A program made the translations under genes and the position numbers. From positions 1,230,501 through 1,294,500 of the forward strand of contig NZ_JNIR01000001.1 of the NCBI RefSeq assembly GCF_000702605.1: a DNA stretch of 64,000 nt, in the 5' to 3' direction. The notes under the pieces are model-generated. The model did no database searches, was not told the DNA's origin, and saw only the letters and a program-made list of their open reading frames with translations. Shown here piece after piece: positions 40,651 to 45,247 of this stretch; positions within the stretch are counted from its first letter, which is position 1; each line of letters starts with the position of its first letter. This stretch comes from Exiguobacterium acetylicum DSM 20416 (GTDB lineage Bacteria > Bacillota > Bacilli > Exiguobacteriales > Exiguobacteriaceae).

Positions 40651-41418
40651 ATGCAGTATCCAACGACATTGGGCACGAAAAATGGCTACATCCACAATCC
40701 GACTTCCGCTGAAGCGATTCCTGTCCGTTATCGTGCCGTGATTCGAGACGTCGTCGCCTATGTACAAACCTTATCCGTGTTTCATGGCGTGTACTTGTAT
40801 GGAAGCGTCGCAAAAGGAACGGCGCGTCCCTTTGAATCCGACCTCGATTTTACACTGATTTTGACAGAGCCGTTGACGGAAGAAGAACACATGCAGTTAG
40901 ATAAACGGACGGAACACTGGTTGACGGACTATCCATTCGTCACCAAAATCGATTATGACATCGGTCTGCTTGACAACGTCATACGGGACGACGAAGTTCT
41001 TCGCTGGGGCGTCTGGTTGAAATCCGTCAACTTGTTTTTGGCAGGCGAAAATCTCCAAAGTCGATTTCCATCCCTTCGTCCGACACGCGCTCTTGGCTTC
41101 GCGTTAAACAGTGGAGTATGTGAGCAGTTGAAAACGGATTTATTTCTCTTAGAAACCGGTCAGGTCGCTCTGCTTCATTCCAAATCGATCGTGAAACGGA
41201 TTATTCGGAGCACCTATCACCTTATTCTAGAAGACGATCAAAGCTTCGTGCATGACCTAGAGACACTCCGCCCGATCCTGCTTCATTATTTCCCTGACGA
41301 ACCGCGCTTTTTGTCACTGTTCACCACATACGATACACACCAAATCATTTCGATAGAGGATGTCCACTACTTTGTAGATTGGTTCATGTCTCGAATGCCG
41401 GACGAATCAATCCTTTAA
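40651..41418 (+). CDS. Nucleotidyltransferase domain protein
   Basis: 255 residues. LYGSVAKGTARPFESDLDFTLIL (about residues 49-72) is the classic nucleotidyltransferase motif; a third aspartate is in KIDYDIGLL. The helical C-terminal region (residues 150-255) resembles aminoglycoside adenylyltransferase-type proteins. The substrate is unknown, so no resistance claim is made. GAGGAGGAAGACAG precedes the ATG. Confidence 0.82.
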   Translation: MQYPTTLGTKNGYIHNPTSAEAIPVRYRAVIRDVVAYVQTLSVFHGVYLYGSVAKGTARPFESDLDFTLILTEPLTEEEHMQLDKRTEHWLTDYPFVTKIDYDIGLLDNVIRDDEVLRWGVWLKSVNLFLAGENLQSRFPSLRPTRALGFALNSGVCEQLKTDLFLLETGQVALLHSKSIVKRIIRSTYHLILEDDQSFVHDLETLRPILLHYFPDEPRFLSLFTTYDTHQIISIEDVHYFVDWFMSRMPDESIL

Positions 41419-42117
41419 TCGAAACAGACCAGTCCACAGTCCAGCATGACCAAATAATGCCTCTGGATTGTCGACGGGTTTCATTTCCGTTAGTTCGATG
41501 ACGTCGAATGCATCGAATATGGCGAGTAACCACTCTTTCGTATAGCCGAGTCCGCCTTGGAGACTGTTTTCTTGATAGACCTCCCAGTCCGTCAACGTCG
41601 CCCCGCCAAGCGGACCGCCCGCAACAAAACACGTCAATCCGAAATATCCTCCTGGCCGCAACATCTCTTTTATTCGCGTCACGTAGGTCAAACGTCGATG
41701 TGGCGCCATATGATGAAAACAGCCGGAATCGTAAATGAAATCATATGTATTCTGTTCGGTCGTCTCTAGAAAATCTTGTTTTCGAAACGCAACATGCGCT
41801 CCAGCCTGTTGTGCTTGTTCTGTTGACCAGTCTAACGCGGTTGCTGAAAGATCGAGTCCCGTCACCGAAAAACCGTGTGTTGCGAGGTAGATCGCGTTAC
41901 GTCCCGGTCCTGTCCCGAGATCTAACGCGTCACCCGGTGAGAGCCATCCCTGTTCGATATAGCGAACTAAGTTCTCGTCAGGGATGTTCTTAAAAAACGG
42001 AACCGGTTTCGTACGATCTTCATAAAATTTGTCCCAAAATGGTTCCGGTTCACGCAATCGCGCGTCGAGCATCTTTAAAATATCCTCCATCGTATCAATC
42101 GTCTGTGGTTCTGTCAT
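41407..42117 (-). CDS. Class I SAM-dependent methyltransferase
   Basis: 236 residues. The SAM-binding motif ALDLGTGPGRNAIYLATHGFSVTGLDLS and the acidic DFIYDSGCFHHM are clear. The opening WDKFYEDRTKPVPFFKN resembles small-molecule methyltransferases of the TehB/UbiE kind. The target is unknown. It overlaps the nucleotidyltransferase gene tail to tail by 12 bases. Confidence 0.86.
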   Translation of the reverse strand: MTEPQTIDTMEDILKMLDARLREPEPFWDKFYEDRTKPVPFFKNIPDENLVRYIEQGWLSPGDALDLGTGPGRNAIYLATHGFSVTGLDLSATALDWSTEQAQQAGAHVAFRKQDFLETTEQNTYDFIYDSGCFHHMAPHRRLTYVTRIKEMLRPGGYFGLTCFVAGGPLGGATLTDWEVYQENSLQGGLGYTKEWLLAIFDAFDVIELTEMKPVDNPEALFGHAGLWTGLFRLKD

Positions 42118-42300
42118 TGATCAGTTCTCCCTCTTTTCTTCTATAATAATGTATTCGTGTTTCCCTACTGATTTCCCTGTATTTCTCGGATAGAAATGCG
42201 CTATTTTTCTTACCTTACGATATTGTTAGTATGTTCTTGAAATCTCTCATGCTACACTAGCCTGTAATTGAAACAACCATTCAAAAGGGAGATATCTTGC

Positions 42301-42936
42301 ATGCGTCAACATCCGACTTCCACTTCCACCTTAGCAACGGATGAGAAGATCATCCGCTTGATTCAAGGTCTTCATCAAATGCACCATTCACCTATGAAAG
42401 CTACCCATTATCAAAAGTTAGCAGCTCAACTTCCTTATCCTTCGCTTGAAGAGATCAATGCCCGATTCGGTTCGTGGGCACACCTGTTAGAACGAGCGGG
42501 AATCGTCAAGACTTCCCATTTATCGACGAAAGAACGCATGACGTTGAACCGTCCCGCTGCGGTCAAGCGAACGAAACGGTGGTCGATCGAAGAAAGCGTC
42601 GCTTTTTATGTCGCACAGAAAGGAACGAACATGACGATTCGCTCCTACACGGAATTGCGGGATCTACATCCGGAGATGTTAAGTGCCAATACGATCATTC
42701 GTCGGTTCGGTACATGGAAAAATGCCTTAACACACTTCGACCTCACCTCGAACGGCTTCTTCACAGATCAAGACTGCTTAGACGCTCTTGAACAAGCTGC
42801 AGCCACGCATGGACCACTTCTGACGAGTCAACAATATGCCAAGTGGGCGCGTGCGCACCAAGCACCTTCACTGACGTTGTTGATTGAACGTTTCTCCAGT
42901 TGGCGCGAAGCCTTGCGTCGTCTCGAGATCGAATAA
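42301..42936 (+). CDS. Three homing-endonuclease-associated repeats, no nuclease
   Basis: 211 residues made of three repeats of about 55 residues (14-68, 94-148, 155-209). Each ends in a shared core: RFGSWAHLLERAGI, RFGTWKNALTHFDL and RFSSWREALRRLEI. Before it comes a Y-x-x-L or Y-x-x-W helix and P-S/S-A. This matches the homing-endonuclease-associated repeat (HNH_repeat), a DNA-binding module. No HNH or other nuclease motif is present. It stands alone with its own terminator; a DNA-binding role is inferred. Confidence 0.72.
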   Translation: MRQHPTSTSTLATDEKIIRLIQGLHQMHHSPMKATHYQKLAAQLPYPSLEEINARFGSWAHLLERAGIVKTSHLSTKERMTLNRPAAVKRTKRWSIEESVAFYVAQKGTNMTIRSYTELRDLHPEMLSANTIIRRFGTWKNALTHFDLTSNGFFTDQDCLDALEQAAATHGPLLTSQQYAKWARAHQAPSLTLLIERFSSWREALRRLEIE

Positions 42937-42982
42937 AAAGGATCGTGCCCGCTGATTGATTCGACGGGACACGATCCTTTTT
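42935..42982. terminator. Strong bidirectional terminator
   Basis: AAAAAGGATCGTG near 42936 pairs with CACGATCCTTTTT ending at 42982, extended by CCCG/CGGG. It separates converging genes. Confidence 0.88.
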
Positions 42983-42984
42983 GA

Positions 42985-43395
42985 TTATTGTTTTGGCAAT
43001 CGCAGGAGCTCATGTTCCGCTTCTTCAGCGCATTTACGTAACGTATAGATCGACTGCTTCTTATCGCTTGTCTTGTTGAGTTGCTGACAGATTTCGTTTT
43101 TACGATCATCGTCTGTCGTACCGAACTGATCACGCGATGAATCGGACGTGTATTGATACGACTTACCATCATACTTGACATCATACAAAATCGGGTCTCC
43201 TTCAGTCGTAAACGCCGTGATGCGAATCTGATCCGATTTGCCTTGCGTTGACTTTTTCAAAAAGGACTCGAATCGGTCTCTGTTCGTAACATCCTTCTGG
43301 ACAATGATGTCGCCATTCTTCTTCTCCTCTTCCATCGTATATTTTCCGAAACCAGCTAAACAAAGCAGACATACCACAAGACAGAGCTTTCGCAT
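42985..43395 (-). CDS. DUF4362 secreted protein
   Basis: 136 residues. A signal segment LCLVVCLLCLAGFG is followed by NGDIIVQKDVTNRDRFESFL and SDQIRITAFTTEGDPILYDVKYDGKSYQYTSDSSRDQFG, the pattern of DUF4362. The start ATG at 43395 follows AAGGAG. It is an exported protein of unknown function. Confidence 0.82.
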   Translation of the reverse strand: MRKLCLVVCLLCLAGFGKYTMEEEKKNGDIIVQKDVTNRDRFESFLKKSTQGKSDQIRITAFTTEGDPILYDVKYDGKSYQYTSDSSRDQFGTTDDDRKNEICQQLNKTSDKKQSIYTLRKCAEEAEHELLRLPKQ

Positions 43396-43415
43396 CACTC
43401 ACCGACTCCTTCTCA

Positions 43416-43919
43416 CTATTTCGCTAATAGACGATCGAGGCGATACAGTTGCGACGTAAAGCCCTCCTTCATCCCCATACCGAGCACTTCTTGCACAGCT
43501 TCTTCTGTCTCATAGGTCGACTCGAAGACGATCAACGTCGTCTCCCCATGATCAATGAATGTCGTGACATTCTCGCTTCCTGGTAAATGTTCAGAGATCA
43601 CCCCTGACGCGTCTGAGAAGTAATCGGCATGACTATACGTGTTCGGAGCATCGATGTTTCTGAAAATCGCTTTCCCCCACGACTCCATGCCGTAAAAGTC
43701 ACCTTGCGCCGGATCAACACAGCGCATGCAATAATGCCACATACCACCCGGTTGAAATTCGAACGTCTTGATCGCTGTCTCCCAGCCTTCCGGTCCCCAC
43801 CACGCTTCAAGCTGTTCTTTTTCCGTAAATGCGGCAAAGACGCTATCTCGCGGCGCTTCACACGTCCATTCCATTCGTAGCGTCTTCCCCTCAATCGAAG
43901 TCTTCAATTCCTTTTTCAT
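43416..43919 (-). CDS. SRPBCC / AHSA1 protein with ArsR partner
   Basis: 167 residues. The opening RMEWTCEAPRDSVFAAFTEKEQLEAWWGPEGW and closing GMGMKEGFTSQLYRLDRLL are typical of AHSA1 proteins. It overlaps the ArsR gene by 29 bases; ArsR-SRPBCC pairs are frequent in bacteria. A ligand-binding role is likely, but the ligand is unknown. Confidence 0.87.
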   Translation of the reverse strand: MKKELKTSIEGKTLRMEWTCEAPRDSVFAAFTEKEQLEAWWGPEGWETAIKTFEFQPGGMWHYCMRCVDPAQGDFYGMESWGKAIFRNIDAPNTYSHADYFSDASGVISEHLPGSENVTTFIDHGETTLIVFESTYETEEAVQEVLGMGMKEGFTSQLYRLDRLLAK

Positions 43920-44256
43920 TCGTCCCGTCTCCCTTCACGTTCGACTGAATCTGCTTCAAATGTGCGTCTAAACGATGCATGCGGGCCTCCATTTGCGCTA
44001 GCGAGTTGCTCCATATGACGAGTTCTCGAAACGCTTCTGGACGAAGACTGTACAAGCGACGATTCGCCTGTCGTTCGACAGTGATCAGTTCCGCGTCAAG
44101 CAACAGCTTCAAATGCTTCGAGGTTTGCGGTTGGCGTAACTGTAATTGTTCAGCTAACTCATTGACGGAGCGAGGACCGTTTCGTAACGCTTCGATCAGT
44201 TGGAGCCGTGTCGCGTCTCCGAGTGCTGAGAATCGTATTGGTATCCGATCGTTCAT
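43891..44256 (-). CDS. ArsR-family regulator
   Basis: 121 residues. Winged helix FSALGDATRLQLIEALRNGPRSVNELAEQLQLRQPQTSKHLKLLLDAELITVERQANRRLYSL. It has no cysteine metal site, so it is not a metal sensor. A candidate operator lies at 44280-44299. It pairs with the SRPBCC gene. Confidence 0.9.
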   Translation of the reverse strand: MNDRIPIRFSALGDATRLQLIEALRNGPRSVNELAEQLQLRQPQTSKHLKLLLDAELITVERQANRRLYSLRPEAFRELVIWSNSLAQMEARMHRLDAHLKQIQSNVKGDGTNEKGIEDFD

Positions 44257-44279
44257 ATCCGTTCACCTCTTTATTTTAT

Positions 44280-44299
44280 ATATTCCCAATTTGGAATAT
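44280..44299. promoter_or_regulatory. ATATTCC/GGAATAT inverted repeat
   Basis: ATATTCC (44280-44286) and GGAATAT (44293-44299) are inverted, 6 bases apart; a further AGAATAT follows about 10 bases on. It is 24 bases upstream of the arsR start. Confidence 0.5.
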
Positions 44300-44392
44300 T
44301 CTAAACTAAGAATATAAAAAATGCAAAATGATTGTCAGATGCGTTCAAATGACGTACGTTCTAAACAACCTGTATGAAAAGAGCGTGAACCA

Positions 44393-45247
44393 ATGAAGAC
44401 CGAATGGATGGAGGCATTCCTCGTCACCGCGGAGACCGGCAGCCTGACGAAAGCAAGCGAAGTATTGCATATGACGCAACCGGCGTTAAGTAAACAAATC
44501 AAAAGTCTTGAGAGTGCGCTTGATGTCTCTTTGTTACACCGATCGGCACATGGTGTCACGTTGACGCCAGCAGGCGAAATCGTCTTTGAAGAGAGTCGTG
44601 AACTGATTGATCGGATCGATCAGATGAAACGACGGATCGGTACGATCGACGAACGGACGACCTTAACGCTCGGATCATGGCCAAGCGTCGCGATGACGTA
44701 TCTCCCGCGTCACGTCTCGCGTCAAGCAACAGCACCAGATCTCAAGTTGAAGACGGCGCATACGACGATCGATTTGATGCAAGGTCTTGAAGAACGCCGA
44801 TACGATGCTGTCTTACTCGACGATCGTCACCATGTCCATCCGTATCATACGACCCATTTGTATACGGAGAACTTTTTACTTTATGTCCATCAAGACGATG
44901 AACGATTCACAGGCTGTACGTCTGTGGCGTTTGAGCAAATTCGTGACGCCTCTTTCTTGTCGCTTCCGATCGATTGCGATTCGACGAACATCCTAAAGGA
45001 CGCGTTCATCGAGCGAGGTGCTGTCTATCAATCAGAAAACGAGATGGAATTCGGATCAAGCGTCCTCGGTTTCATCCGTGCAGGACTTGGTATCGCTCTA
45101 TTGCCGGAGATTTTCCAAGATGGACTGTCCCCTGAAATCAAGACGTTACCGGTCGACGGGTTTGATGTCGTCCGCGAATTGTCACTCGTCTCACGAGACG
45201 CCTCCCATCATGCGATCCTGCTTGATTTACTCGGTCAGTCGCGCTGA
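44393..45247 (+). CDS. LysR-family regulator
   Basis: 284 residues. N-terminal helix-turn-helix MEAFLVTAETGSLTKASEVLHMTQPALSKQIKSLESALDVSLLHR, then a substrate-binding-type effector domain from about residue 90. The gene is divergent from ArsR and converges on the membrane protein gene. The target is unknown. Confidence 0.9.
   Translation: MKTEWMEAFLVTAETGSLTKASEVLHMTQPALSKQIKSLESALDVSLLHRSAHGVTLTPAGEIVFEESRELIDRIDQMKRRIGTIDERTTLTLGSWPSVAMTYLPRHVSRQATAPDLKLKTAHTTIDLMQGLEERRYDAVLLDDRHHVHPYHTTHLYTENFLLYVHQDDERFTGCTSVAFEQIRDASFLSLPIDCDSTNILKDAFIERGAVYQSENEMEFGSSVLGFIRAGLGIALLPEIFQDGLSPEIKTLPVDGFDVVRELSLVSRDASHHAILLDLLGQSR

Follow-up and report, generated by a model that had tools for sequence, protein, structure and literature searches.

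A nuclease-free triple HNH_repeat protein of Exiguobacterium, a candidate DNA-binding regulator preceded by a conserved 18-bp box

The HNH_repeat (PF18780, 'Homing endonuclease associated repeat') has so far been recorded only as an add-on to homing endonucleases. In the stretch of Exiguobacterium DNA analysed here (64,000 nucleotides, the window), gene A encodes a protein built of three such repeats, which raises the question of what the repeat does when it stands alone. A first-pass annotation had left the choice between a DNA-binding regulator and a fixed relic of a homing endonuclease. On balance we lean towards the former, in which A would be a stand-alone, sequence-specific DNA-binding regulator that reads a box upstream of its own gene, controls itself, and belongs to a nuclease-free family linked to lifestyle. 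The features of the locus are collected in Table 1.

Table 1. Features at and around gene A, in window coordinates
Feature	Position	Strand	Basis or remark
Conserved 18-bp box CCTTACGATATTGTTAGT, candidate operator of gene A	42213..42230	+	18/18 orthologs
Putative -10 hexamer TACACT, preceded by TGC (extended -10)	42253..42258	+	Fixed spacing in 18/18
Gene A, 211 aa, three HNH_repeat units (ATG at 42301, TAA stop at 42936)	42301..42936	+	Translation; PF18780 E 2.3e-18; model
Bidirectional intrinsic terminator stem, gene A and convergent DUF4362 gene	42936..42992	.	Fold -27.0 kcal/mol
Small convergent DUF4362 protein	42985..43398	-	Pfam; in most, not all, orthologous A loci
LysR-type regulator	44393..45247	+	Pfam; beside A in 17/17 neighbourhoods compared

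The assignment of the repeats, made at first without a profile, was borne out by a Pfam scan, in which the A protein matched PF18780 in three stretches with a total of 66.7 bits, above the curated cut-off of 26 bits. The repeats lie at residues ~13–67, 93–147 and 154–208 and thus make up nearly the whole protein, the exception being a basic linker of 25 residues (68–92, net charge +6) between repeats 1 and 2; the repeats themselves carry a net charge close to zero. The similarities of repeats 1 and 3 and of repeats 2 and 3 were each equalled in 0 of 2000 shuffles, and that of repeats 1 and 2 in 15 of 2000. The likeness among the three repeats therefore exceeds an effect of composition.

No nuclease family was detected in the A protein in scans of Pfam, NCBIfam and PHROGs at E values up to 10, nor was a nuclease found among the twelve neighbouring proteins scanned, so the earlier statement that no nuclease is attached stands. 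Residence in an intron or intein was likewise not found: A is an ordinary intergenic gene with its own ATG, an RBS-like AAGGGAG a short way before it, and its own terminator. The terminator noted in the first-pass annotation is real, and is common to A and the convergent DUF4362 gene; a strict consensus scan missed it, probably because its loop is larger than the scan permits. NCBIfam returned no family for the A protein, and a PDB sequence search nothing significant; PHROGs returned phrog_22655 (function unknown; E 6.9e-08) and one weak family. A phage origin was considered and rejected, as no phage record matched at E 0.01 and the matches obtained at E 10 were weak (E 0.9–7). No Rfam match was present in positions 41000–44500.

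The structure of the repeats was approached by modelling. AlphaFold models of A (from 32 sequences) and of a second repeat protein of the same genome, type D, had mean pLDDT values of 84.7 and 84.8 and pTM values of 0.40 and 0.35, respectively; high pLDDT together with low pTM indicates that single repeats are well predicted and that their mutual arrangement is not. Each modelled repeat consists of four helices, with a long helix, a two-helix HTH-like core and a fourth helix. In the VIA comparison of A, 39 of 306 chains scored Z at least 5, and the matches listed were nearly all TetR-family HTH domains lying on repeat 3, the best with Z 7.1 (rmsd 2.0 across 54 residues). The D model gave Z at least 5 with 18 of 990 chains; among the matches listed, TetR HTH domains on repeats 1, 3 and 4 were mixed with ribosomal proteins on residues 61–183. 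In helical units, Z scores near 7 may stem from a common helix arrangement. Foldseek gave no match below E 1, the TetR_N profile was not among the Pfam matches to A at E values up to 10, and sequence-level kinship to the TetR, MarR, LysR and Xre HTH families was rejected, because hhalign scores did not exceed those of column-shuffled controls. Since profile comparison gives no support for homology with these four families, we describe the modelled repeat as having a likeness to the TetR HTH, and do not claim membership of the family.

These results bear on the best surviving alternative, that the repeats bind RNA or a protein partner (a chemoreceptor, a GGDEF protein or an exopolysaccharide enzyme) and resemble an HTH only through a common helical arrangement. 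The weak fold scores of A, the missing sequence link to known HTH families, the near-neutral net charge of the A repeats and the match of one D repeat region to ribosomal protein chains would all fit such a role. However, repeat 3 of A and several D repeats match chiefly TetR HTH domains, repeats homologous to those of A accompany DNA-cutting enzymes, and conserved positions in A cluster in the putative recognition helices. Among 18 orthologs, 95 of the 211 positions of A are invariant, and in the third helices of the repeats, which would be the recognition helices, this applies to 22 of 30 positions (Fisher p 0.0012; p 0.0003 after removal of family-wide structural positions). We consider binding of RNA or protein unlikely, and infer that A probably binds DNA.

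A candidate site for such binding was found upstream of A itself. In an alignment of the upstream regions of the 18 orthologs, the box CCTTACGATWTTGTTAGT is a near-invariant block, with one mismatch in one genome, and forms an imperfect inverted repeat, CTTAC-N6-GTTAG. Between clades the box region matches at 18–20 of 20 positions, whereas 60 shuffles of each pair never gave more than 16. The end of the box lies 66–70 nt from the ATG, while its distance to a -10-like hexamer (TACACT or TAAACT, with TGN directly before it) is a constant 22 nt in all 18 orthologs. No -35 consensus was found before A, and a scan for consensus sigma-70 promoters was also empty. At up to one mismatch, every one of the 18 genomes with A has the box exactly once, and the 20 family genomes lacking A do not have it. 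The box, unique per genome in this way, is a new finding. Being partly palindromic, it could be read by a dimer just as well as by a monomer with tandem repeats.

A wider regulon defined by the same box was considered and rejected. The genome of the window has a single site at up to two mismatches, and the two further sites at three mismatches are at the level of the control. Among 38 genomes there are five extra sites at two mismatches (G002, G007, G009, G018 and G037), and the box pattern in reverse, used as a control, gave 0–2 sites per genome. Where one of these five sites shares its contig with an A-type gene, the two are more than 25 kb apart. Upstream of A-type paralogs on small contigs (six genes, L047 being left out) the best matches were 11–13 of 19, which is the level of shuffles. 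The box is a candidate operator and the most likely site of A.

A second alternative is that the box is read by the LysR-type regulator encoded nearby, and that A is an ordinary LysR target with another biochemical role. The LysR gene lies beside A in every neighbourhood compared, and is found in 19/19 genomes of the genus and 0/19 of the sister genus (E 1e-60). The box moreover contains a T-N11-A dyad, the kind of site that LysR proteins bind. Against this, the promoter region of the LysR gene itself contains no box-like sequence (best 12/18), and in G005 the LysR gene is kept intact, its TGA being its ordinary end and not an interruption, although both A and the box are absent. Retention of LysR in a genome without the box weakens its case as the reader, and we regard it as distinctly improbable in that role. 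The joint loss of A and the box in G005 says little by itself, because the box is part of the A promoter.

A is well conserved and under selection. Orthologs are present in 18 of the 19 genomes of the genus, that of the window included and G005 alone lacking one, with 62–98% identity across the genus; the E. indicum gene is 98% identical, and a search with the single A protein returned only three loci, all close ones from Exiguobacterium. In the 19 genomes of the sister genus the best match to A is 29% identical, and the two loci read there proved to be of type B. Seven ortholog pairs were compared by the NG86 method, two of them giving no usable dS; four within-clade pairs had dN/dS values of 0.034, 0.060, 0.125 and 0.104 and one between-clade pair a value of 0.225. 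A is thus under strong purifying selection. That A is a fixed homing endonuclease relic, a DNA-binding leftover without a function in the cell, would agree with the origin of the Pfam name in homing endonucleases and with the fusion of the repeat to an HNH nuclease-like protein elsewhere in Bacilli (L064, judged from sequence), but is very improbable and was rejected in view of the within-clade dN/dS values, the near-complete retention, the promoter box at fixed spacing and the presence of the repeat family-wide. Of the two possibilities first raised, the relic has therefore fallen; the regulator gains support indirectly, through the HTH-like model, the conserved putative recognition helices, the box and the genes beside which the family is placed.

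The first-pass annotation had treated a free repeat protein as an oddity, and within the Exiguobacteriaceae this is not so. PF18780 matches were found in 38/38 genomes of the family, and the genome of the window encodes four stand-alone HNH_repeat proteins, here called types A–D. Within this family, multi-repeat proteins normally come without a nuclease. A control set of 14 well-known genomes gave a match in one, below the cut-off. Across the wider class, matches were obtained in 76 of 299 genomes, of which 27 belong to the Exiguobacteriaceae; matches outside the family were mostly single repeats, many in ORFs of ~800 aa (in other Bacilli, L071, L075, L077, L083, L086 and L089). The strongest match of the class scan (L062, genome G188) is in a 102-aa frame with a second match in an adjoining 60-aa frame, possibly a broken gene.

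The placement of types B, C and D is conserved in both genera. Types C and D flank an exopolysaccharide cluster (Wzz, Polysacc_synt_2, glycosyltransferase, Bac_transf and DegT by Pfam) on both sides in 8/8 genomes listed, four of this genus (G000, G005, G007 and G018) and four of the sister genus (G023, G024, G029 and G032). The cluster genes were identified by Pfam in G000 and G023 and by matching start sequences and lengths in the others, the G005 cluster being read as two overlapping stretches. The genes beyond C and D are not the same in the two genera, so that C and D follow the cluster itself rather than its genomic location. Type B lies tail-to-tail with a membrane GGDEF gene in 5/5 listed loci of both genera (L039, L053, L057, L058 and L060), and in L039 and L057 a Pfam match establishes the GGDEF domain.

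Upstream alignments of B, C and D gave conserved blocks, none of which resolved into a common operator. Type B genes (L039, L053, L060 and others) share a CCGATA-containing upstream block in both genera, and those of this genus have a short GAGG...CCTC inverted repeat ahead of the start codon. In the sister genus, conserved blocks (for example ~CGGGTA...TAGCATC) lie between the divergent D gene and exopolysaccharide operon in L054, L055, L056 and L059. A highly conserved non-coding block was also seen ~150 nt 5′ of the Wzz gene in L041 (5785–6429, minus strand) and at the same place in L048, L049, L050 and L052, the five loci representing five genomes of this genus. No Rfam match was found for this block in L041, L049 and L052, and no Rfam leader RNA at the exopolysaccharide loci scanned; a leader element or an operator is possible.

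In the window, the immediate neighbours of A include no exopolysaccharide, GGDEF or chemotaxis genes, and none of the neighbours in its clade is conspicuous. In a far clade, the gene for a Protoglobin-MCP (HemAT-like) receptor is oriented divergently to A in L096 (Pfam) and, judged by position and length, in L101; in L095 a protein of Protoglobin-MCP-like sequence is encoded close to A on the opposite side, and ORFs of similar size occupy the receptor place in L061, L097–L100 and L102. A-type paralogs also occur on small contigs, among them a named plasmid. One paralog is flanked by two HAMP-MCP receptors (L043) and another adjoins a glycosyltransferase and an N6-methylase (L042; both by Pfam). 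The HAMP-MCP matches in L043 overturned a reading of the genes next to the L043/L044 paralog as GGDEF-like. On the E. acetylicum plasmid NZ_CP081879.1 (L091, 1–24573), an A-type paralog annotated as hypothetical lies near genes for a UvrD-like helicase, a PD-(D/E)XK nuclease, Vsr and Dcm, a group that looks like a defence or DNA-modification island.

In the regulator reading that we prefer, each of the three repeats of A would fold as a four-helix, TetR-HTH-like unit, and the repeats would jointly read one long DNA site, the 18-bp box just 5′ of A's own extended -10 promoter. As the most likely site of A is its own upstream box, A is probably autoregulatory, acting as either activator or repressor, and may control further genes as well. 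It would be one member of a nuclease-free HNH_repeat family, types A–D, that is core in both genera of the Exiguobacteriaceae. The exopolysaccharide, diguanylate cyclase and chemoreceptor genes that adjoin members of this family point to regulation of a surface or motile lifestyle. A broader proposal, which we put forward only tentatively and regard as less likely than not, is that the DNA-reading part of a homing endonuclease was freed and expanded in the Exiguobacteriaceae into a class of regulators with tandem TetR-like HTH units and one long, near-unique site each, with C and D dedicated to the exopolysaccharide cluster, B to the diguanylate cyclase gene, and A and its small-contig paralogs to chemoreceptor-linked loci, together forming a lineage-specific switch between motile and surface-attached states. 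With a nuclease-free lineage-wide set and, for A, strong selection and a conserved candidate operator, the function of the repeat becomes directly testable. If the reading is correct, HTH units arranged in tandem, each protein having a long unique site, would also be of value to builders of DNA-binding tools.

Among the titles listed that join Exiguobacterium with exopolysaccharide or c-di-GMP there were no such regulators, and in the portions of the literature available to a search by the names of the repeat, PF18780 was found only in a modelling table of one paper. In the family described here the repeats constitute the whole protein, three or four in each, in a lineage-wide set; unlike an HNH homing endonuclease, A has no nuclease domain, no intron or intein residence and no adjoining nuclease gene. 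The TetR-family N-terminal HTH provides most of the best solved-structure matches to predicted repeat 3 of A and to predicted D repeats. In contrast to TetR proteins, A lacks a C-terminal ligand-binding and dimerisation domain, its 211 residues being taken up by three repeats and the linker, and its several predicted HTH-like units stand in tandem and show no profile-level similarity to TetR. A further comparison is with WhiA, whose fold family is unrelated to HNH_repeat. The available parts of PMC3781837 and PMC11701221 describe WhiA as a bacterial transcription regulator related to LAGLIDADG homing endonucleases, a precedent for a regulator with this kind of kinship; the available main text of a paper on domesticated mobile elements (PMC8987985) names neither WhiA nor AP2. 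Whereas WhiA keeps the homing-endonuclease domain together with an HTH, A keeps the accessory repeat only, in tandem copies. If A-type proteins are indeed regulators, they would add to WhiA a second way in which homing endonucleases have led to regulators of bacterial genes.
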